A stretch of 64,000 bases of DNA from Rhodospirillaceae bacterium. GTDB lineage: Bacteria; Pseudomonadota; Alphaproteobacteria; SHVZ01. Positions 2,513-47,679 of the stretch are shown piece by piece. Made by a program: the position numbers and the translations under genes. The stretch is taken from positions 1 to 64,000 of the forward strand of contig JAEULB010000122.1 of the NCBI GenBank assembly GCA_016792585.1, read 5' to 3'. Each line of letters begins with the position of its first letter. The first letter of the stretch is position 1. The notes below the pieces were generated by a model. That model searched no databases and was not told the DNA's origin. It saw nothing but the letters and a program-made list of their open reading frames with translations.

Positions 2513-5500
2513 ACCTCTCGGAACCCTTCGTCCGGCGGCCGGTCGGCACCACGCTCTTGACCGTCGCCGTCGCGCTCGCCGGCATCGCCGCCTATTTCGC
2601 GCTGCCGGTCTCGCCGCTGCCGTCGGTCGACATCCCGACCATCTCGGTCCGCGCCAGCATTCCCGGCGCCAGCCCCGAGACCATGGCTTCCAGCGTCGCC
2701 ACGCCGCTCGAGCGCCGGCTCGGCGTGATCGCCGACGTGACCGAGATGACCTCGTCCAGCGGCGCCGGCTCCACCGGCGTCACGCTGCAGTTCAAGCTCT
2801 CCCGCGACATCGACGGCGCCGCCCGCGACGTGATGGCGGCGATCAACGCGGCGCGCGGCGACCTGCCCTCGACGCTCCGCAGCAACCCCACCTACCGCAA
2901 GTTCAACCCCGCCGACGCGCCGATCATGATCCTGGCGCTGACCTCGGCCAGCATGACCCGCGGCCAGATCTACGAGGCGGCCGCGAACGTCGTGCAGCAG
3001 AGGCTCTCGCAGGTGTCGGGGGTCGGCGACGTCGAGATCGGCGGAAGCTCGCTGCCGGCGGTCCGAGTCGAGCTCCAGCCCTACTCGCTCTCGAAATACG
3101 GGATCAGCCTCGAGGACGTGCGCGCCGCGATTGCCGCCGCCAACCCCAACCGGCCCAAGGGAGCGATCGAAAGCGATGGGCGCCGCTATCAGGTCTACAC
3201 CAACGACGCCAGCGCGCTGGTGGCATCCGACTTCCGCGACCTGATCGTCGCCTGGCGCGACGGCGCGCCGGTCCGGCTCCGCAACGTCGCCGAGGTGATC
3301 GACAGCGTCGAGGACACCCGCACGCTGGGACTGGTCAATGGCCAGCCTTCGGTGGTGGCGATCATCAGCCGCCAGCCGAACGCCAACATCATCGAGACGG
3401 TCGATGCGATCAAGGCGGAGCTGCCGGAGCTCAAGGCCGAGCTTCCCGGTATCGACCTGACCATCGCTTCCGACCGCACGCGCACGATCCGGGCCTCGCT
3501 GAACGAAGTCGGCCTGACTCTGATCATCTCGATCGTGCTCGTCATCGCCGTGGTCGCGCTGTTCCTTAGGAGCTGGCGGGCCACGGCGATCCCGGCGATC
3601 TCGACCGTGGTCTCGATCCTGGGCGGGCTGGCGGTGATGTACGCGGCCGGATTCAGCCTCAACAACCTGAGCCTGATGGCGCTGACGGTGGCGACCGGCT
3701 TCGTCGTCGACGACGCGATCGTCGTGCTGGAGAACACCAGCCGCCACCTCGAGCAGGGCATGAGCCGCTTCAAGGCGGCGTTGCTGGGTGCGCGCGAGGT
3801 CGGATTCACCGTGCTGTCGATCAGCCTGTCGCTGGTCGCGGTGTTCATCCCGCTGCTGTTCATGGGCGGCATCGTCGGCCGGCTCTTTCGCGAGTTTGCG
3901 GTCACGCTGTCGGCGGCAGTGATGATCTCGCTGGTGATCTCGCTGACGACGACGCCGATGATGTGCGCCTACCTGCTGACGCCCGAAGGCGACGGCAAGC
4001 CGGGTCGCATCTCGCGCTGGCTGGAGGGCGGATACCGGTTCGTCGTCCGGACCTATGGCCGAAGCCTCGACTGGGCGCTCGACAACGCACCGCTGATGCT
4101 CTTCGTGTTCGTCTTCGTGATCGGGCTCAACGTCTGGCTGTTCACCGCCGTGCCGAAGGGCTTCTTCCCGCAGCAGGACACCGGCCAGCTCAACGGGTTC
4201 CTCCGCGCCGACCAAAGCATCTCGTTCGAGGCGATGCGCGGCAAGCTGACCGAGATCGTCGAGGTCATAAGGCGCGACCCGGCCGTCGACACCGTGGTGG
4301 GCTTCACCGGCGGCAGCCGCGCCGGCTCGGGCTTCCTCTTCGTCACCCTCAAGCCGAAGCCGGGGCGCACCGAGTCGAGCCAGCAGGTGATTGCCCGGCT
4401 CAGGCCGCAGCTGGCGCAGATCACCGGTGCTGCCCTGTTCCTCAACCCGGTGCAGGACGTGCGCGCCGGCGGCCGCGGCGGCAACGCCAGCTACCAGTAC
4501 ACGCTGAAGAGCGACAACCTGGCCGACCTCCGGCTCTGGGCCGCGCGGCTCGCCGACGAGATGAAGAGCCAGCCCGAGCTGATCGACGTCGACACCGACC
4601 AGCAGGACCGCGGCGTCGAGACCTTCCTCACTGTCGACCGCGACGCCGCGACAAGGCTCGGCGTCTCCTCGCGCGACGTCGACAACGCGCTCTACAACGC
4701 CTTCGGCCAGCGCCGGGTCACCACGCTCTACAAGGACCTCAACCAGTACCACGTGATCATGGAGGTGGCGCCCCACCTCGCCCGCGATCCCTCGGCGCTG
4801 CGCGACGTCTATGTGCCGGCCGGTACCACGAGTACGACGCAAACCGCGACGGCCACCACCCGCGATCCCTCGACCGGATCGGCGCTGACCCGGGCGCCGC
4901 GCAACATGGTGCCGCTCTCGGCCATCGCCCGCTATGCCGACGGCTCGACCCCGACCGCGATCAACCACCAGGACATGGCGATCTCGACCACGGTCTCGTT
5001 CAACGTCGCCGACGGCTATTCGCTGAGCGACGCGCAGCTGGCGATCTCGCGCTCGGAAGCGAACATCCGGATGCCGACGACGCTTCGCGGCAGCTACCAG
5101 GGAACGGCACGCGCCTACCAGGACTCGCTCCGCGACCAGCCGCTGCTGATCCTGGCGGCGATCCTGACCATCTACATCGTGCTGGGCGTGCTCTACGAGA
5201 GCTACGTCCATCCCGTGACGGTGCTCTCGACGCTCCCCTCGGCCGGCGTCGGCGCGCTGATCGCCCTTCTGTTGACCCGGATGGAGTTCTCGATCATCGC
5301 GCTGATCGGCCTCATCCTCCTGATCGGCATCGTCAAGAAGAACGCGATCCTGATCATCGACTTCGCGATCGACGCGCAGCGCGCCCGCGGCCTGACCGCG
5401 CGCGAAGCGATCCACGAGGCATCCATCCTCCGTTTCCGGCCGATCCTGATGACCACATTGGCCGCCATCCTCGGCGCGGTTCCGCTGGCGATCGGCTTCG

Positions 5501-32910: not shown

Positions 32911-33861
32911 TCAGTCGCTGGGCTTCGCGAAGCGGAGCGCGCGGTCGCCCTTCTTCGCCCCGTGGTTCGGCATCACCAGGTAGCAGTCGTCGTGCGGCGT
33001 GGTGACGGTCTCGTCGCCATCCTGGGCGATCGGCGACCCGGCCTTGGCGAAATGCTCGAGACCCGTGAAGTCCTTCACGAACTTGAAGCGATCGGTCTTG
33101 GCGGTATAGCCGCCGGAGACGTCGACCATCGTCTGCGGCTTCGGCGACTTGACGTGCACGTGCGCCATCATCGTAGCCTCGTCGATCGCGCCGGTGGCGG
33201 CGAGGAAGCGGAGCGTGGTGTCGAGCGCGACCTTGGCGGCGTTGGCTTCCCAGTGCTGGCCGCATTCGACCAGGATCGCGGTCTTCGCGTTGGAGCGGTC
33301 GTTGAACGGCGTGTACTCGATCAGGCGCTTGCCCTGGATGTGGCCCTGGCCGGCGACGATCCAGGGCGGAACGGCGACCTGGCGGGCGAGCCTCCGCTCC
33401 TTGTCGAGGCCGTGCACGATCATCAGCGGCGCTGACGGCGTACCCATCGAGTGAATGTCGAGCAGGTAGTCGGCCTGGTCGAAAACGGGGCGCAGCTCGC
33501 GGGCGCGGGTCAGCTCGGCCGATTTCTCCGGGCCATCGAGGCGGCTCTCGACCCAGACCCGGTTGAAGTCCTCGTCGACATAACGTGAGCCATTCGGCTT
33601 CGCCGGGTCGAAGCGTTTGAAAGCCCCGACGTTGACGAAGACCAGTGACAGCTTGCCCTGCTTCGGCTTGAGTCCCAACGAGAAGATCGTCTCGAGCGCG
33701 ATCGCGCCGCAGATCTCGTTGCCGTGGGTCAAGGCGTTGACCATCACATGCGGACCGGGCTTGCCGGAATCGAAGGTGTGGACGTAGGGCACGCCGTTGG
33801 TTCCGCGGGCGAAGCGGGAGATGTCTGGGGCCTTCAGCTCGACCGGATGATGCGTCGTCAT
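32911..33861 (-). CDS. Succinylglutamate desuccinylase/aspartoacylase-family (M14) deacylase
   Basis: Zinc-dependent amidohydrolase of 316 residues in the AstE/AspA branch of M14. Zinc ligands are seen as His and Glu in NALTHGNEICG and His in LLDIHSMG; the general-base Glu is in AILVECGQHW; RVW after DEDFN matches the substrate-binding segment. These enzymes cleave N-acyl amino acids, releasing the free amino acid. Downstream genes encode an ammonia-lyase-like enzyme and an S9 peptidase; upstream is an enolase-superfamily gene. A pathway that deacylates an unusual amino acid and then deaminates it is a reasonable inference. Confidence 0.9.
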   Translation of the reverse strand: MTTHHPVELKAPDISRFARGTNGVPYVHTFDSGKPGPHVMVNALTHGNEICGAIALETIFSLGLKPKQGKLSLVFVNVGAFKRFDPAKPNGSRYVDEDFNRVWVESRLDGPEKSAELTRARELRPVFDQADYLLDIHSMGTPSAPLMIVHGLDKERRLARQVAVPPWIVAGQGHIQGKRLIEYTPFNDRSNAKTAILVECGQHWEANAAKVALDTTLRFLAATGAIDEATMMAHVHVKSPKPQTMVDVSGGYTAKTDRFKFVKDFTGLEHFAKAGSPIAQDGDETVTTPHDDCYLVMPNHGAKKGDRALRFAKPSD

Positions 33862-33875
33862 GTGATCTCGATATT

Positions 33876-33911
33876 CGGGGACAGGAGGTCCCCGACTTTA
33901 TCAAGTCCCCG
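33876..33911 (-). promoter_or_regulatory. Mutually exclusive hairpins (possible attenuator) before the AstE-like gene
   Basis: On the plus strand CGGGGAC (33876-33882) can pair perfectly with GTCCCCG at 33888-33894 or with a second copy of GTCCCCG at 33905-33911. GACTT/AAGTC between the two copies can form a third small stem. The element fills the gap between the enolase-superfamily stop and the deacylase start, so competing structures could tune expression within the operon. Confidence 0.4.
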
Positions 33912-33913
33912 GC

Positions 33914-35092
33914 TCAGGCGAACAGCGACTTCGGATTCTCGGTGTAGCGGGCGAGCTTCCTCGGATCGATCTCGATGCCGAGGCCGGGGCTGTCCGGGAT
34001 CTGGAGCCAGCCTTCCTTGTCCAGCTTGAACGGCTCGACCGTGATGCCGTCGACATAGGGGCTGCCGCCGATGAACTCGACCAGGTCGGTCTCGGGGAAG
34101 GCCGTCGCCATCTGCAGGTCGGCGGCAACGCCGAGCGCGGTGTTCCAGCCGTGACCGATGTATTTCACGCCGAAGTCGTAGGCCATCCAGGCGATACGCC
34201 GCTGCTCGGAGATGCCGCCGACCTTGGTCACGTCCGGCTGCACGATGTCGAAGGCGCCGCGCGTCAGCCACGGGATGAAGGCCTGGCGGCGGGTCAGCAC
34301 CTCGCCGCCGGCGATCGGCACCGGGCTCTTGCGGCGGAGCTCGCAGAAGTCGTCGATCGCGTCCGGCCGCAGCGCCTCCTCGAACCAGCCGACCTCGAAG
34401 TCCTTCAGCATCTCGGCGGTGCGCATCGCCCACTTGAGACCATGCGGCCAGTACGCGTCGCTGGCGCCGGCGTCGACGAACAGCTTCGACTTCGGTCCCG
34501 CCCCCTCCCGCGCCGCCTTCACGATCGCCTCGTCGAGCTTGTGGTCGAGCGCCCGGCCGAACGGACCCCAGCCGATCTTGAACGCGGTGAAGCCTTTCGC
34601 CTTATACGAGGCGACGACGTCCTTCATCTTCTTCGGCTCTTCCATCAGCAGCGAGCAGTAGGGCTGCACGCGCTCGCGATGGCGACCGCCGAGCAGACGG
34701 CTGACCGAGAGCCCCGTCACCTTGCCGAGGATGTCCCAGAGCGCGATGTCGATGCCGCTGATCGTGTGGGTCAGCGACCCGCCTCGGCCCATCCAGAAGG
34801 TGTTCTGGTGCAGCTTCTCGGACACGCGCTCGGGCTGCAGCGCATCCTCGCCGGCATAGAGCGGTTCCAACACCTTGAGCGCGGCAGCGACCAGGCGGGC
34901 ATCGGTGAAGACGCTGCCGAAGCCGGTGATGCCGGCATCGGTGTGGACCGCGATCAGCGCATGGATCGAGTCCTCGGGCTCGATCTCGGCCGACCAGCCT
35001 CCCTTGGGGCTCTCCCCGAACAGCGGCGCGGACCGGATCGAGGTGATCCTGACCTTGGGCGCGCTGCCCGCCTTCGACTTCCTCGCGCTCAT
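33914..35092 (-). CDS. Mandelate racemase/muconate-lactonizing-family (enolase superfamily) enzyme
   Basis: Enolase-superfamily enzyme of 392 residues. The N-terminal capping domain is followed by a barrel with metal ligands Asp in LFVDAG, Glu in WFEEAL and Glu in AGGEVL. QPDVTKVGG and IGHGWNT look like the Asp-His dyad of the mandelate racemase subgroup. The position of the KxK motif reads A-F-K-I-G, so only the second lysine is kept. That points to an acid-sugar dehydratase- or epimerase-like activity, not true mandelate racemase. It appears to be the first gene of a minus-strand operon with a deacylase, an ammonia-lyase-like enzyme and a peptidase. Confidence 0.9.
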   Translation of the reverse strand: MSARKSKAGSAPKVRITSIRSAPLFGESPKGGWSAEIEPEDSIHALIAVHTDAGITGFGSVFTDARLVAAALKVLEPLYAGEDALQPERVSEKLHQNTFWMGRGGSLTHTISGIDIALWDILGKVTGLSVSRLLGGRHRERVQPYCSLLMEEPKKMKDVVASYKAKGFTAFKIGWGPFGRALDHKLDEAIVKAAREGAGPKSKLFVDAGASDAYWPHGLKWAMRTAEMLKDFEVGWFEEALRPDAIDDFCELRRKSPVPIAGGEVLTRRQAFIPWLTRGAFDIVQPDVTKVGGISEQRRIAWMAYDFGVKYIGHGWNTALGVAADLQMATAFPETDLVEFIGGSPYVDGITVEPFKLDKEGWLQIPDSPGLGIEIDPRKLARYTENPKSLFA

Positions 35093-35195: not shown

Positions 35196-37883
35196 TCAGA
35201 AGGCGGCGACCTTGCCCTGGGCGATCACGGCGCGAACCGCGGCGCCGATCTCTTCCGGGAGCACCGGCTTCGAGATCACCGAGTTGATGCCGCTCTTGCG
35301 GAGCGAGACGTCTTCCTCGGCCGAGATGAAACCGCTCAGCATAAGGATCGGGAGGTTCGGGCGGATGCCCTTCATCTCCTTGGCCAGCTGCTCTCCGGGC
35401 ACCCTCGGCATCGCGCGGTCGGTGATGACGAGATCCCAGCCATTCGGCTTCTCGCGGAAGGCTGCCAGTGCCAGCAGCGGCTCGGCGAACGCGTCGACCG
35501 AATAGCCAAGGCGCATCAGGATGTCCTTGGTGACCGCCAGCAGGGCCCGGTCGTCGTCGACCAGCAGGATCCGCTCCTTGCCGGCGACCGACAGCGTGCT
35601 CGGCCTCTGCTCCTTCGACGGCAGCGCCTGCCCGTCGATCGTCGGCAGGTAGGTCGAGAACGACGTACCAACCCCCGGCACGCTCTCTATCGTGACGACG
35701 CCCTCGTGGTTGCGGACGATGCCCTGGACCGCGGCGAGGCCGAGGCCGGTGCCTTCGCCGACCTCCTTGGTCGTGAAGAAAGGCTCGAAGATGCGCGGCA
35801 TCGTCTCTTCGTCGATGCCGCCACCGGTGTCGCGAACGCTGATGCGGGCGTAGCGCCCATCGGTCAGCGAGCCCGACTGGCCGCGAACCGGCGCCTTCGG
35901 CCAGGGATCGCCGCCGACATCGCGGCCTTCGGTGCCGCGCACCTGGACCGACTTGACCGAGACCTTGATCGCGCCTTCTCTGGGGCCGATCGCTTGTGCC
36001 GCGTTGAGGCAGAGGTTGAGCAGGACCTGATGGATCTGGGTGGCGTCGCCCGAGACCAGGCACTCGTCCATCTGCTCGACCTGGAGCGAGACGTTGGACG
36101 GCATCAGCGGGTTGACGATGGTCAGGCTGTCCTTGACCACCGAGCCCAGTTCCAGCGGCTTCCGCTCGGATTCCGCATTGCGGCTGTAAGTCAGGATCTG
36201 GCGCACGAGGTCGCGGGCGCGGGTGCCTGACTCGATGATCTGGCGCAGCCGCTCGTAGCCCGGATCCTCCTTCGGCGTATCGATCATCAGGAGCGAGCAG
36301 TTGCCGAGGATGCTGCCGATGATGTTGTTGAAGTCATGCGCAATGCCGCCGGCGAGCGTGCCGAGGGCCTGCGTCTTCTGCGCGGCGTGGTACTTCTCCG
36401 TCAGCTGGGCCCGCTCGGCCTCGGAGCGCACGCGCTCGGTGATATCCTCGTAGGTCTTGACGAAGCCGCCGGTCGGAAGCGCCGTCACCAGCGTCTCGAC
36501 GATGCGGCCGTCCGGCAGGCGCCGCTGCTGGCGGAAGCTGCCCTTCTTGTCGCGGAGCAGCTGCGAGATCGCACCGACCTGGGAGGCCACCAGCGCATCG
36601 GCCTCGCCCGGGCCGAAGTCGCCGCGGAGTGCCGAGAAGCGGGCCAGATCCTGGTACTTCCGGCGAGGATAGACGAAGCCGTCCGGGTACTTGTTGACCT
36701 CGATGTAGCGGTCGTTGAACAGCACCAGCGAGAAGTCGGCATCGAACACGACGATGCCCTGCTTCATGTTGTCGAGCGTCGTCTGCAGCAGCGCCGACTT
36801 CTGATTGATCAGATGCTCACGCTCTTTGAGCTCGGTGATGTCGGTGTGGACGCCGACGATGCGCCCGTCGCTGGTTCGGCGCTCGCTGATCTTCAGCCAC
36901 TTGCCGAAGGCGAGCTCGCTTTCGAAGGTGGAGTCGGCCTCGCGGCGCTGGCGGAGACAGGACTGGATCCAGGATTCGACCTGGTCCGGCGGGATCGAGA
37001 TGCCGCCGTTGCGGACCGAGGCCAGCAGCAGCTCGCGGAAATGGACGCCGACGGCGAAGACTTCGGCCTGGAGCGGATGCAGCTCGACATAGCGCTTGTT
37101 GAACAGCGCCACCGTGTCATCCGGATTGTAGATGATGAAGCCTTCGGAAATGCTGTTGATCGCCAGCTCGAGCTCGTTGCGCGCCTGGATCGCGGCCTCG
37201 GCCGAGGTCGCCGCGGCGACGACCGCGCGATGGGTCCTCACCGTCTGGATGAACAGCATGACGAAGACCGCGAGGCCGCCCGCCAGCGTCAGGACGAAGA
37301 GGCCGAGAAGCTGGAGGTAGAGCTCGCTGTGGCGGTTGCGGGCGCCGCTCACCTCGTTGGATTCGTACAGCAGCGCGTAGCGCACGAGGTCCTGCAAGGG
37401 ACCGCGGAACTCGTCGAGCTTATCGTCGACCTTGGCCAGAGCCTCGGGCGCGATGTTCGGCATCCGGTTGAGTTCCGGCTCGATCTCCTCGAGCGAGCGG
37501 ATCATCGAGCGGACCGACGGGACTACGCCCTCGATCTCGCGGAGGCCTGCGTTCTGCGGCCCGCTGAGCAGCGGCGTCAGCCGGCTCCAGAAGATCTCGA
37601 AGCGCTCCTTGGCCTCGTCGGCGTTCGATTTGGTCGGAGCGATCGTAAAGGTCTTGAGAGACTCGCTCAGGCGGAGAAACTCGATCTCCGCCTGCGCGAC
37701 GAACCAGATGGCGATCCGGCTCTCCTTCTCGATCAGCGCCCGCTGCTGGATGAGGCCCTGGAAGATGAAGAAGACGCCGATGAGGAACGCGCAGAACGCG
37801 ACGACCAGCGCGCCATAGCGGATCAGAGGCCATCTGACCTCTTCCATGCCGCCGACCGGAGCAGTGGTCGTCGCCGTAGACAT
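35196..37883 (-). CDS. Membrane-bound hybrid histidine kinase with PAS domains and C-terminal receiver
   Basis: Sensor kinase of 895 residues. Two TM helices (about 21-43 and 190-213) flank an all-helical periplasmic sensor region. Two PAS-like domains follow (about 235-355 and 365-485). The HisKA H-box is GGIAHDFNN with His516. The ATPase domain has its N-box at NAAQAI (Asn627), DTGGGID and GTGLGLA. A receiver spans about 770-890 with VDDD, Asp822 in VITDRAMP and Lys872 in ISKPV. All catalytic residues are present. It lies 38 bases after a small periplasmic SUOX-fold gene, which could be its ligand-binding partner. No output domain is attached, so phosphate must pass on, perhaps via the Hpt protein at 40918. 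Confidence 0.94.
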   Translation of the reverse strand: MSTATTTAPVGGMEEVRWPLIRYGALVVAFCAFLIGVFFIFQGLIQQRALIEKESRIAIWFVAQAEIEFLRLSESLKTFTIAPTKSNADEAKERFEIFWSRLTPLLSGPQNAGLREIEGVVPSVRSMIRSLEEIEPELNRMPNIAPEALAKVDDKLDEFRGPLQDLVRYALLYESNEVSGARNRHSELYLQLLGLFVLTLAGGLAVFVMLFIQTVRTHRAVVAAATSAEAAIQARNELELAINSISEGFIIYNPDDTVALFNKRYVELHPLQAEVFAVGVHFRELLLASVRNGGISIPPDQVESWIQSCLRQRREADSTFESELAFGKWLKISERRTSDGRIVGVHTDITELKEREHLINQKSALLQTTLDNMKQGIVVFDADFSLVLFNDRYIEVNKYPDGFVYPRRKYQDLARFSALRGDFGPGEADALVASQVGAISQLLRDKKGSFRQQRRLPDGRIVETLVTALPTGGFVKTYEDITERVRSEAERAQLTEKYHAAQKTQALGTLAGGIAHDFNNIIGSILGNCSLLMIDTPKEDPGYERLRQIIESGTRARDLVRQILTYSRNAESERKPLELGSVVKDSLTIVNPLMPSNVSLQVEQMDECLVSGDATQIHQVLLNLCLNAAQAIGPREGAIKVSVKSVQVRGTEGRDVGGDPWPKAPVRGQSGSLTDGRYARISVRDTGGGIDEETMPRIFEPFFTTKEVGEGTGLGLAAVQGIVRNHEGVVTIESVPGVGTSFSTYLPTIDGQALPSKEQRPSTLSVAGKERILLVDDDRALLAVTKDILMRLGYSVDAFAEPLLALAAFREKPNGWDLVITDRAMPRVPGEQLAKEMKGIRPNLPILMLSGFISAEEDVSLRKSGINSVISKPVLPEEIGAAVRAVIAQGKVAAF

Positions 37884-37921
37884 TCAGGCTTTCGTGCGCC
37901 GTCGAATGCGGGGCAGCGCTT

Positions 37922-38443
37922 CTATCGAACCCGCAGTTCCTTGACCTGCCAGACCCACTTCGCCTGGGTCTCCTTGTTCTTCAGCGCCGGGAAGTCGTCC
38001 TGCGGGTAGATGATCCACAGCGGCCCCTTCTCGCGCACCTTCAGGAGCTCGCCGTTCATCCGGTAAGCCAGGATCACCGGATAGCGCTGGAAGTCAGCCA
38101 TCGGGATCTCGACCTTGTAGTCGTTGAGCGCGACCGCGGTGACGGTGTCGCCGGAGGCGCCCAGGCGCTCGAGCAGCGCCTTCAGGTTCACGCCCTCGAA
38201 CTCGGGCGTACCTTCGGTCCAGGCGGTCGAGGTCTTGGTCTTGGCCTTGCCGACGCTCTCGAGCAGCGCCAGGTCGAAAGCGGCCTTGTCGCCGTCGTTG
38301 GTGACCTTGATCTTGCCGGTCACCTCGAGCAGCGGACGCTCGGCCGGCTTCGCCAGCGGCTGGGCGAGAGCCGGAACGGCGGCGAGGACCACGATCGAGG
38401 CGGCCCAGGCGAATGCGCCGATTGCCTTGCGGATGAGTGACAT
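37922..38443 (-). CDS. Periplasmic SUOX-fold (molybdopterin-binding oxidoreductase-like) protein without cysteine
   Basis: Small exported protein of 173 residues. The ATG at 38443 has GGAGAAG before it and opens a Sec signal ending near ALA-QP. The mature part matches the C-terminal half of the oxidoreductase molybdopterin-binding fold: FEGVNLKALLERLGA, then ALNDYKVEIPMADF, ending GPLWIIYPQDDFP and WVWQVKELRV. The mature chain has no cysteine, so the usual Mo-coordinating residue is missing and enzymatic activity is unlikely. Because it is cotranscribed with a membrane kinase that has a periplasmic sensor region, it may act as a ligand-binding or redox-state partner of that kinase. Confidence 0.8.
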   Translation of the reverse strand: MSLIRKAIGAFAWAASIVVLAAVPALAQPLAKPAERPLLEVTGKIKVTNDGDKAAFDLALLESVGKAKTKTSTAWTEGTPEFEGVNLKALLERLGASGDTVTAVALNDYKVEIPMADFQRYPVILAYRMNGELLKVREKGPLWIIYPQDDFPALKNKETQAKWVWQVKELRVR

Positions 38444-38520
38444 CGAACTTCTCCGTTTCATTATTGGGATGATAGTGCCGTTTCCGACGACTCTTTCCCC
38501 CGACAAGACCCCTTCGCGGC

Positions 38521-39831
38521 CTATTTGTCGCCCTTCGCGGGCGGCTCGGGCGCCCGATGATAGATAGCCGCGGCAAGCAGCGTCAAAACGCCCAGAAGTA
38601 GAAAGAATGCCGCATATCCCGGAGCCGCGCTACCGGCCCAGCCCTGGACCAGGCGGATCACCTCGCCAGAACCGATCTGCAGGATCGCGGTGCCGCCCAT
38701 CAGCACGAAATTGAGCGTCGTCGTGCCGCGCCCTGCCAGGGCCGGAGGCACCAGCGCCACGCCATGGGCCATCAGGACGACGCTATAGGCACCGACGAAG
38801 CAGATCGCGATCAGGAGTGGCACCGTGAACCAGATCGGGGCGGTCGAGACCGCCGCCAGGATGACCATCAGCGCCGCCGAGGCGATGCCGCCGAGGACGA
38901 CCACGGGACGGAAGCCGCCGGCCCGCTGCTGGATCGGTCCGTAGGCGAGCGTGCCGAGGATCATCGCGACCGCCATCACCGAGAGGAGGTTGCCGCGGGC
39001 GACGCCGTCGATGCCGTAGACGTCGTGCAGGTAGGGTCCACCCCAGAGGCCGACGATGGTCACGATCGACGAGTAGCCGATGCCGATCATCGGCATCACA
39101 TGAAGAAGGCCCGGCGTGCGGAACACCTCCCTCATGCCGCCGATCGCGGCTGCCAGCGTCAGCGGCTGCGCCGGGCGCGTAGCACCTTCCGGGTAGTCGC
39201 GGACGAGCATGGCGAAGATCACGCCGATCAGGCCGGTAGCGATGCCGAGCACGACGAAGGTCGTGCGCCAGCCGACCCACTCGTTCGCGGCGGCAAGCGG
39301 CAGTGTCGCAAGCAGGCTGCCGACATTCGCCATCGCGAACAGCAGCGTCATCGCGCGGGTGAACTTGGACGGCTCGTTCCAGCGCGACAGCACGACCAGC
39401 GAGCCGGTCATGCCGCCGGCGAAGCCGAGGCCAATCAGGAAGCGGCCAGCGACGAGGGGGCCGATCGACTCGGCGACCGCGAAGAGGAGCGAGCCGATCA
39501 CGGCGAAGACCAGCATGGAAGAGACCACGAGGCGCACGCCGTAGCGGTCGAAGAGCACGCCGATCGGAATCTGCAGAAGGGCGAAGATGACGAAGAAGGA
39601 ACCAGACGACCATCCGATGTCGCCGGCATCGATGCCGAGCTCGCTCATCAGCTCCGGTGCGATGACGCCGTTCGACGAGCGGAAGAACTGGCTCATGATC
39701 GCAAGCGCGATCATCACGGCCAGCATCAGAGTCACGTGACGTATCTGTCGCACGGCGGCGCCAAAATTCCCGATGGTGATCGATGATGCGGCTTCGACAG
39801 GGTCCGGAAGACGATTCTCGGCTGCCTTCAT
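38521..39831 (-). CDS. Major facilitator superfamily transporter
   Basis: Inner-membrane transporter with 12 predicted TM helices, 436 residues from the ATG at 39831. The open frame continues 40 codons further upstream, but that part is not membrane-like. The MFS loop-2/3 signature is seen as GVLFDRYGVRLV, and GRFLIGLGFAGG is in TM4. It resembles nitrate/nitrite-porter-like or organic-anion MFS members, but the substrate is not evident. No strong ribosome site precedes the ATG. It stands between signalling genes on the same strand, with a palindromic element in its upstream region that could be an operator. Confidence 0.88.
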   Translation of the reverse strand: MKAAENRLPDPVEAASSITIGNFGAAVRQIRHVTLMLAVMIALAIMSQFFRSSNGVIAPELMSELGIDAGDIGWSSGSFFVIFALLQIPIGVLFDRYGVRLVVSSMLVFAVIGSLLFAVAESIGPLVAGRFLIGLGFAGGMTGSLVVLSRWNEPSKFTRAMTLLFAMANVGSLLATLPLAAANEWVGWRTTFVVLGIATGLIGVIFAMLVRDYPEGATRPAQPLTLAAAIGGMREVFRTPGLLHVMPMIGIGYSSIVTIVGLWGGPYLHDVYGIDGVARGNLLSVMAVAMILGTLAYGPIQQRAGGFRPVVVLGGIASAALMVILAAVSTAPIWFTVPLLIAICFVGAYSVVLMAHGVALVPPALAGRGTTTLNFVLMGGTAILQIGSGEVIRLVQGWAGSAAPGYAAFFLLLGVLTLLAAAIYHRAPEPPAKGDK

Positions 39832-39887
39832 GGAGCGGACTTTTCCAGAGACCTTCTGCTCGTAGTGGACGCGCACACTTGAGATGG

Positions 39888-39908
39888 TTTCGTTACAACT
39901 AAACGAAA
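39888..39908. promoter_or_regulatory. 21-bp inverted repeat upstream of the MFS gene (candidate operator)
   Basis: TTTCGTT-ACAACTA-AACGAAA is a perfect 7-bp inverted repeat with a 7-base spacer, set in the most AT-rich stretch of the 213-base gap and 57 bases before the MFS start codon. The 14-base centre spacing suits a dimeric DNA-binding protein. Confidence 0.45.
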
Positions 39909-40009
39909 AATACGGTTTTCCGGCGCGCACTCTAGGTACTTCGCCCAGCACCTGCCATCCAGAAATTGGCTCAAAATAGTTAACGAAGTCTTAGCGTCGC
40001 GGAGTTGTG

Positions 40010-40027
40010 GGCGGCTTTCGAGCCGCC
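40010..40027 (-). terminator. Stem-loop with TTCG tetraloop after the response-regulator gene
   Basis: GGCGGCT-TTCG-AGCCGCC is a perfect 7-bp stem with a four-base loop, 17 bases past the stop of the response-regulator gene on the minus strand. No T-run follows in the direction of transcription, so it may be an mRNA end-protecting hairpin instead of an efficient terminator. Confidence 0.45.
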
Positions 40028-40044
40028 GCCGAAAGGGGACGCTC

Positions 40045-40917
40045 TTACGTTGCCGGACCTGCCTCGGCATACGCCGATAGGCTGCGCGGCGCATGCCGAT
40101 CGGTCTTCCAGCTCTGATAGTCGGATTCGCCGCTCTTGCCGGCCGCTTCGAAGGTCGCCTGTCCGTAAAAGGAGTACCAGGAGTCGACCAGGTCATCGAC
40201 GTCGTCCGAATCTAGCACGCCCGACCAGTACAGGGTCGCCTTCAGGTAGTCGAGGAACCTGATCTTCAGCATCATGCTGGAATTGGCGACGAAGTTAACG
40301 ACGCCGGCGATGTATCCCAGGATGTAGAGCTTCTGGTCGACGGTCCGTCCGAAGCCGTTCGGCGCCTGGGCCCGCGCCGCCTTGATGAAGTGAGTCAGCG
40401 TCTCGACCACCTCGTCGCTCTCCGGCGTGAGCGTCCGCCAGCTCTTCTCCGGCGCCGCCGCATTCTGCGTCTTGGGCGCTTCCACCCGGATCGCCGTCTG
40501 CACGTTCTTGAGGATGCTGTCGCGCTGGCCCGGCTGCAGGGTCCGGGCCGGTGCGTGCATCCAGTAGCTCACCCGCTCGAGCACGCCGTTGATCGTCACG
40601 CCCTTGATCAGGAAGTCGTCGCCACCGGCCTCGATGCACTCGTGCAGGATCTCGAGGCGGTCGTTGCTGGTGATGAAGATGATGGTGACCGACTTGCCGT
40701 GCTGGCGGCGGATGCGTCTGCATACCTCGGTACCGCCGATCCCCGGGAGATTGACGTCGAGGATCACCAGCCGCGGCATGTACTGCGGGAAGAGCCGCGA
40801 GGCCTCCTCGCCCGTCGAGGCCCCGACTACCAGGAAGCCGCGGGACTTGAGCGCCTCGACATAGGCCCGGCGCTGCGTCGGCTCGTCCTCGACGACCAGG
40901 ATCAGTCCGCTCGGCAT
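40045..40917 (-). CDS. Response regulator with receiver and unrecognised C-terminal domain
   Basis: Protein of 290 residues. The N-terminal receiver is complete: VVEDE (acid pocket), Asp54 in VILDVNLPGI, FITSND and Lys105 in FLIKG. After a linker (about residues 120-150), the remaining 140 residues form a mostly helical region containing VDQKLYILGYIAGVVNFV and RFLDYLKATLYWSGVLD. I recognise it as no DNA-binding, GGDEF, EAL or methylesterase domain. The output is therefore unknown, perhaps protein-protein interaction. The gene follows the receiver-Hpt gene with no gap, so the two are cotranscribed. It probably receives phosphate from the nearby hybrid kinase. Confidence 0.88.
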   Translation of the reverse strand: MPSGLILVVEDEPTQRRAYVEALKSRGFLVVGASTGEEASRLFPQYMPRLVILDVNLPGIGGTEVCRRIRRQHGKSVTIIFITSNDRLEILHECIEAGGDDFLIKGVTINGVLERVSYWMHAPARTLQPGQRDSILKNVQTAIRVEAPKTQNAAAPEKSWRTLTPESDEVVETLTHFIKAARAQAPNGFGRTVDQKLYILGYIAGVVNFVANSSMMLKIRFLDYLKATLYWSGVLDSDDVDDLVDSWYSFYGQATFEAAGKSGESDYQSWKTDRHAPRSLSAYAEAGPAT

Positions 40918-41682
40918 CTAGCGCGAAAGCTCCTGGGCTTGGCGGCGCCGGTCGGCGAGCGTCACCAGCACCTGCTGAAGCTCAGCCTTGGTCTCGGGCA
41001 CCAGCCGCTTCACCGACTCACGCTCGGACTCGATGCAGGCGCTCTCGACCGAGCGCGCGATCCGGCTGAGGTCCATGAAGCCGAGGTTCGCCGCGGAGCC
41101 GCTCAAGTCGTGGGCATATCCGCGAAGCCGCACGAGATCGCCGGCCGCGGCGGCGCGCTCGATATCCGCCATCCGGAGCGTCGAGCCGGCGATGAAGTCG
41201 TCGACGATCGGGGCCAGGGTCTCGGCGGCGAGCCCGCCGGCAAGGCCGCCCAGGCGCTCCGAGGTTGCGGCGACCGGCTCGGAGGCGCGATCGGCCAGCG
41301 CCGGCACGCGCGAGCGCGACCACCTGGCGACGGCTTCCGCCAGCATGGTCGGCGAAACCGGCTTCGGCAGGTGGCCGTTCATGCCGGCGGCAAGGCAGCG
41401 TTCGGCGATGTCTCCCTCGACGTCGCCGCTGATCGCCACGATCGGAACATCCCCCTGGCGCCCGCCGAGCGCCCGAATCTTGGTTGCCGCGGCGAGCCCG
41501 TCCATATCCGCCATCTGGATGTCCATCAGGACGAGGTCGTACGGCAAAAGCCGGCATCCTTCCACAGCCTCGCGCCCGCTGCCCGCCTCGTCGATGCGGT
41601 GGCCATCGGCCTCCAGGACGGCAGCAAGGAGCTTGCGGTTCACACGGTTGTCGTCGACGAGAAGGATCCTGGCCCGGCGCAT
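40918..41682 (-). CDS. Receiver-Hpt phosphotransfer protein
   Basis: Protein of 254 residues from the ATG at 41682; ATGs at 41712 and 41745 are also in frame, but the receiver fold starts at once after the chosen codon. The receiver has VDDN, Asp54 in VLMDIQMADMDG and Lys107 in LPKPVS. The C-terminal Hpt domain (about 150-254) has the phospho-histidine His191 in YAHDLSGSAANLG. Such proteins are intermediates of multi-step phosphorelays. It lies directly before the receiver protein at 40045 and divergent from a DHp-like protein, so the cluster contains the parts for a kinase, Hpt and receiver chain. Confidence 0.88.
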   Translation of the reverse strand: MRRARILLVDDNRVNRKLLAAVLEADGHRIDEAGSGREAVEGCRLLPYDLVLMDIQMADMDGLAAATKIRALGGRQGDVPIVAISGDVEGDIAERCLAAGMNGHLPKPVSPTMLAEAVARWSRSRVPALADRASEPVAATSERLGGLAGGLAAETLAPIVDDFIAGSTLRMADIERAAAAGDLVRLRGYAHDLSGSAANLGFMDLSRIARSVESACIESERESVKRLVPETKAELQQVLVTLADRRRQAQELSR

Positions 41683-41855
41683 GAAACGTCCGCTACGCGC
41701 GAAAGGCGGCATCCTAGCAGGGTGTTTGTCCGCATGCGCGGACATGTTGATCCAGGCTTCGCCGCACCCGCGAATTCGGTCGGCTTGCGAGTTGACTTGT
41801 CGTTGGCGGCGGGGTCACCCTGACCGCCGGAACAAACGGGAAAGGATGGGGTCGC

Positions 41856-42524
41856 TTGAGCGATCAACCGAACGAAGACGTGCGCGACCGGCTCAAGAAA
41901 TGCACGCATGACCTGAACAATGTGCTCGGCCAAGTCCTGGGCTTCAGTTCGCTTCTCGTCCGCGACATCGGCGACGCCAATGCAACCGGCCGTTTGCCGC
42001 CTGGCGTCCTCGACTACGCCCAGGAGTTGCTGGCCGCCGGCCTCCGCGGCGAGGTCATCGCCAGGCAGCTGACCCAGATCGTCCGCCAGCTCCCCGCCTT
42101 GCCGGGAAGCGCCCCCCAGGCTCCCGCCGCGGCGGCTGCGCCGGAAGGGCCGGCGCGACGTCTGCTGATCGCCGGCGTCGGCGACGGCGTCGCCGACCCG
42201 CGCGCCACGGGCTTCGTCGAGCTCGGCTGGCAGGTAGAGAGCCACCGCTCCGGCGCCGACGCGCTCCGCCGCTTCCGTTCCAGCACCAAGCCGTTCGATG
42301 CGGTCATCGCCTATCCGTCGGCCCCGGAGATCCCGGGCACCGACCTGATCGCCGCGATCAAGGCCCTTAAGCCGAAGACCGTCTGCCTCCTGGTCCTCGG
42401 CGACGGCATCGCCGACGAGGCGGCGGCGAAGCTCGCCGGCGCCGACGGCGGAATCGCCGGCCAGACCTCGGGGCCGTCGGCCGCGGCGATGGTCGAGACC
42501 CTGCTTCGACAGAAGGGCGCCTAG
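41856..42524 (+). CDS. Histidine-kinase-like H-box protein with degenerate receiver, no ATPase domain
   Basis: Protein of 222 residues from a TTG start behind AAAGGA. Residues 8-80 resemble a HisKA dimerisation helix pair: THDLNNVLGQVLGFSSLLV, with His18, aligns with the H-box HDFNNIIGSILGNCSLLM of the hybrid kinase at 35196. No N-box, DxGxG or GxGLG follows, so there is no ATPase domain. After an Ala/Pro linker (82-98), residues 100-222 have a receiver-like pattern. The phosphoacceptor Asp is replaced by Tyr153 (FDAVIAYPSAP) and the conserved Lys is absent. It may act as a histidine phosphotransfer or decoy protein. This interpretation is inference. Confidence 0.72.
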   Translation: MSDQPNEDVRDRLKKCTHDLNNVLGQVLGFSSLLVRDIGDANATGRLPPGVLDYAQELLAAGLRGEVIARQLTQIVRQLPALPGSAPQAPAAAAAPEGPARRLLIAGVGDGVADPRATGFVELGWQVESHRSGADALRRFRSSTKPFDAVIAYPSAPEIPGTDLIAAIKALKPKTVCLLVLGDGIADEAAAKLAGADGGIAGQTSGPSAAAMVETLLRQKGA

Positions 42525-43999
42525 GCGGCGAAGGGATCGGCCACCAGCGGCCAGAGCGGCCGCGCGATCTTCGTGTAGGGAACGTCGCGGACGTTCAACG
42601 TCAGCGGCCCCGGTCCACCGGTATAGAGAACCGCCCGCGCGATCGGCCGGAAGGCCGCGTTGAAATGCGTGAACGACTTCACGATCACGATCCGCTTGCC
42701 GGCCGGATCGATGCCGAGGCCCGAGAACAGGTCCAGCCCCAGCGCCTGGGTCCGCGTCGAGATCAGCACGACCGCCAGCCCCTTGTGATCGAGAAGCTCG
42801 ATGGACGCGGCATCACCGAGCTCGTCGCGGGCGCCGGCGAAGGTCTGGGTGGCGCCGCGGACGCAGCGGATCACCCGGACGCGCGCATCGATCGGCCGGC
42901 CCGAGGTCGGCCCCATCTTGCCGGCGAAGCGGAGCGCGAAGACGCCACCCTCGCCCGCGGCGAGACACTGCCTGACCGCGATCGGGTCCCAGACCGGGCC
43001 GACCGCGACGCCCTCGATGCCGCGCTCGATCACACGATCCATGAAGTAGGTTGAGTCCGACGGCGCGCCGCCACCGGCATTGTCGGCGCGGTCGGCGATG
43101 ACGACCGGTCCCTTCCCCGGTTCCGCCAGCAGCCTTTCCGCCTCGTCGAGCGCGTCGTCCATGCGGGCGCTTTCGGGGAACAGCGCGTCCTTCAGCGCGT
43201 AGAGCTCGCGCCCGAGCCGCTCGGCCAGGCGATCACCCTTCTCTTTCGCATCGTCGGTGATGACGACGATCTTGACGCCGAGATCGGCGACGTCGCCCAG
43301 CGTGTAGCCGTGCACGATCGAGATCGAGAGCACGCCATCCTTGCCCTCGAGCGCTTTCACCCTGTCGACGAAGCTTCGCATCGGCTCGTCGACCGTCGGC
43401 ATGAACTGGATCATCCGGCAGTCGTAGACCGAGGTCGCCGGCTTGATCTTCTTTCGCGCGCAGTCCGCGATGATGTCGACCAGCTCCTCGCCACGCTCGA
43501 GGTAGTCGGTGTGCGGCGACTCCTTGAAGCAGATCAGCGCATCGGCGCTTTTCGTCATCGTCTCGGTCAGGTGACAATGCGGATCGAGCTCGGCGCCGAC
43601 CGGGACATCGCGGCCGACGATAGCGCGCACCCGCGCCAGAAGATCGCCCTCGCAGTCGTCGTAGCCGTCGGCGACCATCGCCCCGTGCAGGCCGAGCACC
43701 ACCATGTCGACCGGCATCGCCGAGCGGAGCTGATCCAGGATCTCGTCGCGGAACAGCTCGTAGGCGGCGCGGGTGACGGTGCCGGCAGGCTGGGCGAAAG
43801 TGCAGGTACCCTCGATCACCTCCCAGTTGGCGGCGCGGCCGCGCTTGCGCGCGGCGATCAAGGGACCGGCGAAAAGGCGCGGCTCGTCGCCGAAAGCGCC
43901 GGGCCCGGCATAGAACGAGGTGCGGAAGTCGGCCTCGCCCGTCACCATCGGCGAGAAGGTATCGGTCTCGGTCGCGAGCGAGGCGGTGAAGACGCGCAT
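42521..43999 (-). CDS. M81-family (MlrC-like) metallopeptidase
   Basis: Zinc metallohydrolase of 492 residues in family M81, named for microcystinase MlrC. The N-terminal DUF1485 domain starts RVFTASLATETDTFSP and contains VLGLHGAMVADGYDDCEGDLL. The metal-site segment GAELDPHCHLT gives Asp and two His. The C-terminal MlrC domain includes VIADRADNAGGGAPSDST. MlrC hydrolyses linear microcystin products, but most members lie in non-microcystin bacteria, and natural substrates are unknown. It is the last gene of the minus-strand importer operon, 15 bases after a creatininase-family gene. Its stop overlaps the convergent signalling gene in CTAG. Confidence 0.93.
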   Translation of the reverse strand: MRVFTASLATETDTFSPMVTGEADFRTSFYAGPGAFGDEPRLFAGPLIAARKRGRAANWEVIEGTCTFAQPAGTVTRAAYELFRDEILDQLRSAMPVDMVVLGLHGAMVADGYDDCEGDLLARVRAIVGRDVPVGAELDPHCHLTETMTKSADALICFKESPHTDYLERGEELVDIIADCARKKIKPATSVYDCRMIQFMPTVDEPMRSFVDRVKALEGKDGVLSISIVHGYTLGDVADLGVKIVVITDDAKEKGDRLAERLGRELYALKDALFPESARMDDALDEAERLLAEPGKGPVVIADRADNAGGGAPSDSTYFMDRVIERGIEGVAVGPVWDPIAVRQCLAAGEGGVFALRFAGKMGPTSGRPIDARVRVIRCVRGATQTFAGARDELGDAASIELLDHKGLAVVLISTRTQALGLDLFSGLGIDPAGKRIVIVKSFTHFNAAFRPIARAVLYTGGPGPLTLNVRDVPYTKIARPLWPLVADPFAA

Positions 44000-44014
44000 G
44001 TCTTGGGTGAACCT

Positions 44015-44839
44015 CTAGGCCGGAACGCGATCGGCATAATGCTTGACGAAGCGCGCGCAGACATCGGTCAGCTGCTCGGCGAGTGCCGCGCCCGTCTCCT
44101 TCGAGGAGAGGTTCGGGTCGCCCTTGCCGACGCCCTGGTTGTAGACCTGATCGTATTCGTTCGGCATCGCCACCTCGTGGCCCTCGAAGCTGGCGGCGCC
44201 GAGCGCGGTGAACTGCAATCCCAGCAGCGGGTCCTTCTTGACCGGCGCGCCCTTCGGCATCTGGTCGGGGCGCATGATCTCGGGGAAGAGATGCAGGCCG
44301 ATGCTGGTCAGCGGATCGGCGCCGTGGCCGGAGACCGCCTTCGACTTCTCGGGTCCGACGATGCCCGGCAACAGGCCGTAGCCGATACGCCAGAGATAGA
44401 GGCTGGGGAAGAGGATCTTCTTCTCGCGCCAGAGGACGCGCGCCACCTCGGCGATCGGCCCGACATTGCCGCCATGGCCATTGATGACGATCAGCCGCGT
44501 GAGGCCGTTGCGATGAAGGGACTTCACCATGTCCCAGATCACGGTGGTCAGCGTCGACTGCTCGATGGTGATGCCGCCGATCATCGAGCCGAACCAGTCG
44601 CCGCCGCCATAGGGCAGAACCGGCGCCACTACGGTCCGCGTGCCGTTCTGGGTTGCCCGCAGCGCGATCATCTCGGCGATCTTCTCGGCGAGCAGGTAGT
44701 CGCCCATCGGCGCGTGCGGACCCTGGTCCTCGTGGCTGCCCATAGGCAGCAGGATGATCGGGTTCTTGGCGTAAAGCTCGCGCGCCTCCCCACCGGTGAT
44801 CTGCCCCATATGGACCTTGGGCGTCGTGTTCCAGACCAT
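44015..44839 (-). CDS. Creatininase-family protein (second paralogue, altered metal-site motif)
   Basis: Protein of 274 residues with creatininase-family landmarks: LPMGSHEDQGPHAPMGDYLLAE near the N-terminus and INGHGGNVGPIAEVAR in the centre. In creatininase the first motif reads E-Q-H-G-P-H and both Glu and the first His bind metal. Here it reads E-D-Q-G-P-H, so that His is replaced by Gln. The second His, the Asp and NGHGG are kept. Metal content or activity may therefore differ from creatininase. It lies between the importer ATPase (30-base gap) and the M81 peptidase (15 bases), so it likely acts on the imported compound or its product. Confidence 0.88.
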   Translation of the reverse strand: MVWNTTPKVHMGQITGGEARELYAKNPIILLPMGSHEDQGPHAPMGDYLLAEKIAEMIALRATQNGTRTVVAPVLPYGGGDWFGSMIGGITIEQSTLTTVIWDMVKSLHRNGLTRLIVINGHGGNVGPIAEVARVLWREKKILFPSLYLWRIGYGLLPGIVGPEKSKAVSGHGADPLTSIGLHLFPEIMRPDQMPKGAPVKKDPLLGLQFTALGAASFEGHEVAMPNEYDQVYNQGVGKGDPNLSSKETGAALAEQLTDVCARFVKHYADRVPA

Positions 44840-44869
44840 GGTTCGTCCTTCCAGAAGTATCTTTGAAGT

Positions 44870-45841
44870 CTAGGCGATTTCCTCGGCGCGGATGCAGGCA
44901 ACCCGTCGCGCCTCGCCGAACGCCCGCAACGCCGGCACCGCTCCGGCGCAGGCCTCGATCGCGTGTGCGCAGCGGGTGCGGAAGACGCAGCCCGACGGCG
45001 GATCCGACGGGCTCGGCGGATCGCCGGGAAGCAGGATCCGCTTGGTCCGCTTGCCCGGATCGAGCCTCGGCGTCGCCGAGATCAAGGCGCGGGTGTAGGG
45101 ATGTGCCGGCTCGGCGAAGACGCGCTCGGCCGGCCCCTCCTCCATGACGCGGCCGAGATACATCACCACGACCCGGTCGCAGAGATGGCGGACGACCGGC
45201 AAGTCGTGGCTGATGAACAGCAGCGCCAGTTTCAGATCGCGTCGAAGCTCGCCCAGGAGCTGGAGGATCTGCGCCTGGATCGAGACGTCGAGCGAGCTCA
45301 CGGGCTCGTCAGCGACCAGGAAGTCGGGGCTGGTCGCGAGCGCGCGGGCAATGCCGACGCGCTGACGCTGGCCGCCGGAGAACTCGTGCGGGAAGCGCTT
45401 GGCCTGCAGCGGGTCGAGCCCGACCATGGTCAGGAGCTCGCCGACGCGGCGGCCCTGCTCGCCCGCCGGCACCAGGCCGTGGATCGCGAGCCCGTCGGCG
45501 ATCTGCGCGCCGACCCGCCGGCGCGGATCGAGACTGCCGTACGGATCCTGGAAGACGATCTGCATCCGCCGGCGAAGCGTCCGCCACTCGGCGCGCGGAA
45601 TTTTGTCGAGCGTCCGCCCGTCGAAGCGCACCGTGCCTTCGGTCGCCGGCAGCAGCCCCAGCATCAGGCGGCCGAGCGTCGACTTGCCCGATCCGGACTC
45701 GCCGACGACGCCGACCGCCTCGCCGCCGGCAAGCGCCACGTCGACCTGGCGGACCGCCTGCACCGCGCGTCCGCGCTTGAAGACGCCGCGGCTGGTGAAG
45801 GTCTTGGATAGACCTGTCGCCTCGATCAGCGGCGCGCTCAT
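44870..45841 (-). CDS. Peptide-type ABC transporter ATPase, DppF/OppF family
   Basis: ATPase of 323 residues starting at the ATG that overlaps the stop of the upstream fusion gene (ATGA). Walker A is GESGSGKST, the signature FSGGQRQR and Walker B FLVADEPVSSLD. The C-terminal oligopeptide domain has its cysteines in GCVFRTRCAHAIEAC and VACI. The N-terminus FTSRGVFKRGRAVQAVRQVDV fits the DppF type. It completes a full importer with the ATPase half of the fusion protein at 45838 as its DppD partner. The open frame extends 38 codons upstream, but that stretch lies inside the fusion gene and is not protein-like. Confidence 0.95.
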   Translation of the reverse strand: MSAPLIEATGLSKTFTSRGVFKRGRAVQAVRQVDVALAGGEAVGVVGESGSGKSTLGRLMLGLLPATEGTVRFDGRTLDKIPRAEWRTLRRRMQIVFQDPYGSLDPRRRVGAQIADGLAIHGLVPAGEQGRRVGELLTMVGLDPLQAKRFPHEFSGGQRQRVGIARALATSPDFLVADEPVSSLDVSIQAQILQLLGELRRDLKLALLFISHDLPVVRHLCDRVVVMYLGRVMEEGPAERVFAEPAHPYTRALISATPRLDPGKRTKRILLPGDPPSPSDPPSGCVFRTRCAHAIEACAGAVPALRAFGEARRVACIRAEEIA

Positions 45842-47679
45842 GCGGCCTTCGCCCCCGCGAGGTCGGTCCAGCGGATGCAGCGGACCAGGCGACCCTCGGC
45901 TGCCTCTTCCAGCGGCGGCGGCGCCGCGCTGCAGGCGGCGATGGCATGCGCGCAACGCGGTGCGAAGCGGCAGCCCGTCGGAAACGCGTGCGGCTGCGGC
46001 ACGACACCGGGAATGCCGACCGGGGCGGCATCGGACTCGTGCACGGCGCCGAGCAGCGCCCGCGTATAGGGATGGAGCGGCGTGCCGAACACCTGGGCGA
46101 CCGGCCCCTGCTCGACCACCTGCCCCGCATACATCACCGTCACCCGGTCGGCGATCTCGGCGACCACCGCGAGGCTGTGGGTGATGAAGATCAGCGCCGT
46201 GCCGGTCTCGCGCTTGAGCTCGGCGAGCAGGTCGAGTATCTGCGCCTGGACGGTCACGTCGAGCGCGGTGGTCGGCTCGTCGGCGATCAGCAGCCGCGGC
46301 CGGTTGGCCAGCGCCATCGCGATCATCACCCGCTGACGCATGCCGCCCGAAAGCTCGTGCGGATAGGCGTTGAGCCGGCGTTCGGGATCGGCGATTCCGA
46401 CACGACGGAAGAGATCGAGGGCGCGCGCCTTGGCATCGGCGACGCTGACCTCCTGGTGAGCGCGGATCGCCTCGGCCACCTGGTCGCCGGCGCGATGCAC
46501 CGGGTTCAGGCTGCTCATCGGATCCTGGAAGACCATCGCGACGGCGCCACCGCGAAGACGCCGCAGCTCCGGCTCGGAGAGGCGCAGTAGGTCGCGGTCA
46601 CCGAACCACGCGGCACCGGCCGCGGGTCGCGCGGCAGGCGGCAGCAGGCCCATCACCGCCGTCGCAGTCAGCGACTTGCCCGAGCCGCTCTCGCCGACTA
46701 GCGCCACGGTCTCGCCGGCGCGCACGCTCAGCGACACGTCCTCGACCGGCTTGATCGCGCCCAAGGGTGTTTCGATCTCGACCGTGAGGCCGCTGACATC
46801 GAGGACCGTCTCGGGCTTCGGCTCTGCCGGCGGCAGCAAGCCGGGCAACAGGCGGTCGACGAGCCGAAGCCGCGGGCGCCTCGCCGGCGTGCGCGGATCG
46901 ACCCAGTCACGGAGCGCATCGCAGAGCAGGTTCATCGCGAGGATGGTCAAGGTCAGCGCGGCGCAGGGCCAGAGCAGCATCAACGGCGCCTGCTCCATCG
47001 TCGCCCTGGCACCGCGGATCATCAGGCCCCAGGAGGGTGCCGGCGGCACCACGCCAAGGCCAAGGAACGAGAGCCCGCTCTCGACCACCACCGCCGCGGC
47101 AACCGCGAGCGAGAACTGCACCAACACGGGGCCTGCGATGTTCGGCAGCACAGTCCGCAGCAGGATGCGTCCCGTCGGCGCGCCGAGCGCCCGCACCGCC
47201 TCGACATAGTCGTTGCTGCGCGCCGACAGCACCTCGGCATAGGCGACACGCGCGAAGCCCGGCACGTAGAGGACGGAGAGAACCAGGATCAGCGTCGCCG
47301 CACCCGGCCCGAGCAAGGTCACGACCAGGAGCGCCAGCAGGATCGGCGGGAAGCAGAGGATCACGTCGACCAGACGGACCGTCAGCAACTCGCCAATCCC
47401 CCGGAACCAGCCGCCGACGAGACCGATCATCGTGCCGATCGCGCCCGCGATCAGCGCTGAGGCGAATGCGACGCCGAGGCTGGTGCGCGCGCCCCAGATG
47501 AGCCGCGAGAGCACGTCGCGGCCGAACTCGTCGCGCCCCAGCGGCGATCCGGGGATTGGGCCCGAGAGCCGCCGGGCGATGTCCTGGCGGATCGGGTTGG
47601 GCAGATCGAGCAGCGGCGCCAGGAGGGCGATCAGCAGGATCGCCGCGACGAAGCCGCCCGGGAGCCAGAGCCGCTTCAA
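45838..47679 (-). CDS. Fused DppC permease and DppD ATPase of a peptide-type ABC importer
   Basis: Single polypeptide of 613 residues. Residues 1-270 form a DppC-type permease with [19 protein letters not shown], the coupling loop [17 protein letters not shown] and [15 protein letters not shown]. Residues 290-613 form a DppD-type ATPase with Walker [11 protein letters not shown], signature LSGGMRQR, Walker [13 protein letters not shown] and C-terminal cysteines in [15 protein letters not shown]. Such permease-ATPase fusions are known in some peptide/nickel importers. Its start overlaps the DppB stop and its stop overlaps the DppF start, so all subunits would be made in step. The fusion is in one uninterrupted frame. 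Confidence 0.95.

Follow-up and report, generated by a model that had tools for sequence, protein, structure and literature searches.

A PruR-like gene paired with a DTB-type hybrid histidine kinase gene in a Rhodospirillaceae bacterium

PruR is described as a secreted, cysteine-less, pterin-binding protein of about 170 aa whose gene lies upstream of the DcpA gene, and the two proteins interact in the periplasm; these and the other published statements on PruR given here come from the accessible portions of a 2026 review (PMC13259868). Agrobacterium tumefaciens PruR favours tetrahydromonapterin over dihydromonapterin, and its pterin-site residues are N102, Y104, and W160. In PruR-DTB pairs, the partner is a sensor kinase whose periplasmic domain carries WX7E. 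The same portions of the review state that FolE opens pterin synthesis, that a pteridine reductase is absent from some PruR bearers, and that neither a pterin efflux system nor the route of pterins to the periplasm is known. NosP-NahK (PMC13259868, accessible portions) offers an analogy only: in both cases a kinase answers to a ligand-binding protein encoded apart from it, but the proteins and the ligand differ. The locus described here lies in the window, a 64,000-nt stretch of Rhodospirillaceae bacterium DNA (GCA_016792585.1, contig JAEULB010000122.1, positions 1 to 64,000), and is a new member of the already described PruR-DTB (kinase) systems rather than a new system. It resembles the PruR-DTB pairs as the review portions present them (PMC13259868) in gene order, in its cysteine-less SUOX-fold periplasmic protein, in the WX7E domain, and in the PAS/HisKA/HATPase/receiver kinase. 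It differs in that the kinase has two PAS_7 stretches and in that its clade has an MFS gene directly upstream, with a FolE gene downstream in two relatives.

The pruR-like gene occupies 37922..38443 on the minus strand, with its ATG at 38443 and its stop ending at 37922, as the first-pass annotation had placed it. It encodes 173 aa and looks exported, with a likely signal peptide at residues 1-27 (38363..38443, minus strand) recognised by eye. The AlphaFold2 model, built on 44 rows, has a pLDDT of 90.4 overall, and its low-pLDDT part is residues 1-30. The protein scores 38.3 bits against Pfam PF00174 (Oxidored_molyb; cut-off 24), in agreement with the earlier statement that the molybdopterin-oxidoreductase fold pattern is kept. 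Its best solved relatives are pterin-binding proteins. The phmmer E-values are 2.8e-37 for 7rkb and 8.7e-36 for 7kos, both entitled 'Pterin Binding Protein', followed by 2e-22 for 7kom and 2.7e-21 for 7kp2. Foldseek comparison of the model gave TM-scores of 0.82/0.97 with 7rkb, which is Klebsiella pneumoniae PruR with neopterin (0.82 being the value for the full-length model), and 0.81/0.93 with 7kos, the A. tumefaciens PruR (42-44% identity). By sequence and modelled fold, the small protein is identified as a predicted PruR, a periplasmic pterin-binding protein.

There is no cysteine in the entire 173-aa chain, and thus none in the mature part, as the first-pass annotation had noted. That annotation concluded that the protein cannot ligate Mo through the usual cysteine. 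The lack of this cysteine is real, and it is a family-wide trait: the SUOX Cys column, fixed by aligning a SUOX protein from the same genome that has this cysteine (L001), holds a Cys in 0 of 76 PruR-like sequences (5 of 81 were under 140 aa and were dropped). A second SUOX protein of the genome (L002) aligns poorly at the column and adds nothing there. Cys occurs elsewhere in the aligned mature part in 6 of the 76 relatives. Thr71 of the small protein stands opposite the SUOX Cys, with Thr there in 65/76 relatives, unlike the Trp that the accessible text of PMC13259868 gives for this position. The small protein shares the SUOX fold and PF00174 with the sulfite oxidase and MsrP (YedY) family, but it is short and single-domain and has no Mo-ligating Cys. 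The Pfam match, together with Foldseek hits to sulfite oxidases, including Cys mutants (TM about 0.6), would suit a minimal active Mo-cofactor oxidoreductase that holds its metal by the dithiolene alone next to an unrelated kinase gene. We regard this as highly improbable: the PruR structures, one with neopterin, match far better than the sulfite oxidases, the chain lacks Cys, the pairing with the sensor domain recurs (see below), and the larger Mo cofactor likely does not fit the PruR pocket according to PMC13259868.

The pocket positions point to a pterin ligand. N107, Y109, and W165 correspond by motif spacing to the reported pterin-site positions, the N-x-Y and Y+56=W spacing being the same as that of N102, Y104, and W160 in A. 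tumefaciens PruR (PMC13259868, accessible portions). N107 and W165 are invariant in the 44-row alignment and Y109 is present in at least 90% of rows. Among the 76 relatives, 73 have Trp at column 165; column 109 holds Tyr (69) or Phe (7), and column 107 holds Asn (59) or Asp (17). The N/D position may tune specificity, according to PMC13259868, and its variation would be compatible with a change of small ligand in this lineage, the protein retaining only the fold and the docking surface. All three pocket residues are kept here, and relatives of this lineage carry an extra FolE gene in the cluster, which makes a different ligand improbable.

The partner gene (35196..37883, minus strand) encodes an 895-aa hybrid histidine kinase of the DTB type. 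The small gene lies upstream on the same strand, and the 38 nt between it and the kinase ATG (37884-37921) reproduce the spacing recorded before. Hydropathy places TM helix 1 at about residues 24-46 (37746..37814) and TM helix 2 at about residues 190-212 (37248..37316), each inside a longer hydrophobic stretch (around residues 18-51 and around 187-216, respectively). The segment between the two stretches was modelled as all-helix with a pLDDT of 90.7, and hydropathy and model thus agree with the earlier description of a helical periplasmic domain between two TM helices. The model's best PDB match is 4k0d, a histidine-kinase periplasmic sensor domain, at an E-value of only 5.6e-3. The sensor domain covers about residues 47-189 (37317..37745) and includes the WX7E motif from W60 to E68 (37680..37706). 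Pfam places the best PAS_7 stretch at residues 370-488 (36420..36776), with a second stretch that also passes, HisKA with the phospho-acceptor at residues 507-569 (36177..36365), HATPase_c at residues 612-747 (35643..36050), and the C-terminal receiver domain at residues 772-883 (35235..35570), all on the minus strand. With regard to the cotranscription proposed in the first-pass annotation, 37700-40100 showed no site resembling a terminator on the minus strand, but there is one sigma-70-like promoter upstream of pruR (38557..38586, minus strand), a consensus match only.

The sensor domain is conserved behind PruR in other genomes. An iterative search of downstream proteins with kinase residues 16-225 as the query found it in the ORFs downstream of PruR at 73/80 named loci and 63/76 class-sample places (4 of 80 without a usable downstream ORF were left out); the two sets overlap in some genomes, for example L135 = G178 and L136 = G351. 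A kinase domain was found in 67/80 and 58/76, respectively. W60 is kept in 123 of the 137 sensor rows, Q64 in 112, S100 in 124, and R101 in 131. E68 is kept in 95 rows and jointly with W60 in 87, and position 68 is Ala in 21/137 and Asp in 11/137. A WX7E motif within the first 130 aa occurs in 91 of 136 proteins, compared with a mean of 16 and a maximum of 26 in shuffles. At three loci (L189, L051, and L109), the same domain follows PruR on GGDEF-type proteins, which is the DcpA arrangement. The DcpA-type label used for the sensor draws on the WX7E motif and on this domain common to GGDEF-type PruR partners. PruR and the logic of the sensor domain are alike in the two systems, but the output here is a histidine kinase and in A. 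tumefaciens PruR-DcpA a diguanylate cyclase/phosphodiesterase.

Adjacency was examined reciprocally in 385 genomes of the class. A partner was counted if it lay on the same strand at a distance of up to 600 nt, and the 92 PruR-like rows used were those with an E-value of 7.1e-7 or better. The sensor domain accompanies 67/92 listed PruR-like places, and a PruR-like place accompanies 68/91 sensor places. Both occur in 58 genomes, PruR only in 12, and the sensor only in 10 (of 385, with PruR taken from the 92 listed rows); the genomes are related to one another, and a Fisher p-value for this co-occurrence is not literal. The pair therefore recurs across genomes, which was the check proposed with the first-pass annotation. 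No sensor is near 25/92 listed PruR-like places and no PruR is near 23/91 sensor places, so the pairing, though strong, is not obligatory. One of the PruR-less DcpA/DTB-type sensors is at G028:C1:2542993. No common periplasmic partner was seen upstream of PruR-less sensors at 20 of the 23 places, where the mechanical calling of ORFs has probably produced some spurious ones. A second PruR and sensor pair at G351:C256:3046-4011 has in-frame stops and is apparently decaying.

The PruR-DTB identity of the locus rests on homology, fold, pocket residues, sensor motif, and adjacency, and the locus is very probably a two-gene signalling unit that senses a pterin as described for this family. The small protein would be exported to the periplasm, where its cysteine-free pocket would hold a small pterin in place of the molybdenum cofactor, a ligand assigned by extension from Agrobacterium PruR-DcpA. 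On the same model, PruR that has bound a reduced pterin in the periplasm would dock on the helical periplasmic domain of the kinase, and conservation places the docking site probably around W60, Q64, E68, S100, and R101. Docking would shift the balance between kinase and phosphatase output through PAS, HisKA, and the receiver, with ligand-dependent switching again modelled on PruR-DcpA. The first-pass annotation had read the small protein as a retired enzyme turned into the periplasmic sensing partner of the kinase. PruR homology, the WX7E sensor, recurrent adjacency, and the published PruR-DcpA interaction (PMC13259868, accessible portions) uphold the partner role; that reading missed the known family and its reported pterin ligand.

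The pair may instead report periplasmic oxidants through the oxidation state of the pterin (tetrahydro, dihydro, or oxidised) rather than pterin abundance, a possible but doubtful refinement of the pterin-sensing explanation and not its opposite. A protein free of Cys excludes thiol sensing, so the ligand would have to supply any redox signal, and the preference of A. tumefaciens PruR for the tetrahydro form (PMC13259868) is in keeping with this; the available text of the review reports no evidence that a pterin reacts within PruR. A PruA/FolM pteridine reductase was not recognised in the genome that holds the window, a weak test at 88.8% completeness. Many SDRs of this genome matched TIGR02685 and NF006598, all below cut-offs. 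Among 13 SDR loci (L114-L126), none of those with a readable motif had the Arg variant TGX3RXG, and a genome-wide pattern restricted to CGN arginine codons gave 8 matches, none PruA, compared with 10 in a reversed control; one of the 8 sits in an epimerase-like frame.

A gene for an MFS transporter (38521..39951, minus strand) lies directly upstream of pruR at a distance of 77 nt. PruR is closest in ten loci, namely the window, G178/L135, G351/L136, G056, and L137 to L142, and in 7 of the 10 this MFS gene is directly upstream of pruR on the same strand. The fetched flanks of L138 (a short one), L139, and L142 did not show it, and none of the 72 other named loci has it. At the order level, 4 of 7 genomes have a close PruR and the same four have a close MFS. 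MFS, PruR, and kinase stay together in G056, L137, and L140, and the MFS gene is still present in L141, beside a divergent kinase of 623 aa that is 35% identical over residues 24-356. The MR_MLE, AstE, receiver, and receiver-Hpt genes of the window were not seen as such beside the G056, L137, and L140 clusters, where there are generic receiver-domain matches only. The best named models for the transporter are weak and of mixed substrates, and the gene neighbourhood alone gives no substrate. The transporter is a candidate for the unknown pterin exporter. Interruption of the MFS gene in BAL199 (L137), where its parts flank an ORF at 2568-3845 labelled transposase-like by eye, counts against export. 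Retention of the MFS gene beside the PruR-kinase pair as other neighbours change, together with the spare FolE of two relatives (see below), makes the gap in pterin export genetically testable.

GTP cyclohydrolase I (FolE) genes accompany the cluster in two relatives. The kinase gene in L137 and L140 is followed on the same strand by a single-receiver gene and then by FolE (L137 8999-9658; L140 8916-9590); the two genomes have 2 and 3 FolE copies, respectively, and the cluster copies are extra. The genome that holds the window has one FolE, on a different contig. In G060, outside the clade, PruR-kinase is followed by a FolE gene that runs off the end of the contig. FolE within the fetched flanks was found at 2/80 named loci and 1/80 class-sample places, thus only 3 cases near PruR in 160 loci, two of them related. 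Since FolE opens pterin synthesis, the spare copy in the cluster independently points to a pterin as the ligand in this lineage.

With the PruR-kinase pair, a signalling family that is young and widespread now includes a lineage of alphaproteobacteria that are for the most part uncultured, and what makes the locus interesting is its linkage to MFS and FolE genes. A self-contained circuit, in which FolE (in the relatives) would make the pterin, the MFS protein would export it, and PruR and the kinase would read it in the periplasm, is unlikely on present evidence; if true, the MFS protein would be the first known pterin exporter. Neither the MFS gene directly upstream of pruR nor the FolE gene downstream in two relatives was found described in the literature. 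Among the papers listed by a search, PruR and folE appeared together only in PMC13259868, and on pterin exporters the search returned only the statement in its accessible portions that none is known, the rest concerning Leishmania and related protozoa or plant folates.

Beyond the MFS gene, window 40045-42524 holds a receiver gene (40045-40917), a receiver plus Hpt gene (40918-41745), and, in the opposite orientation, a HisKA-like ORF that has no Pfam match; the three occur together in G178. The receiver and receiver-Hpt proteins were considered as phosphorelay partners of the kinase but are not proposed as such: the pair is beside the cluster in G178, whereas L137, L140, and L217 did not show it in this form. 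AstE/AspA-like, mandelate-racemase-like, M81/MlrC peptidase, and creatininase-like genes lie in window 32911-35092 and 42521-45955, and a further gene of this set was labelled by eye as ABC-transporter ATPase-like.
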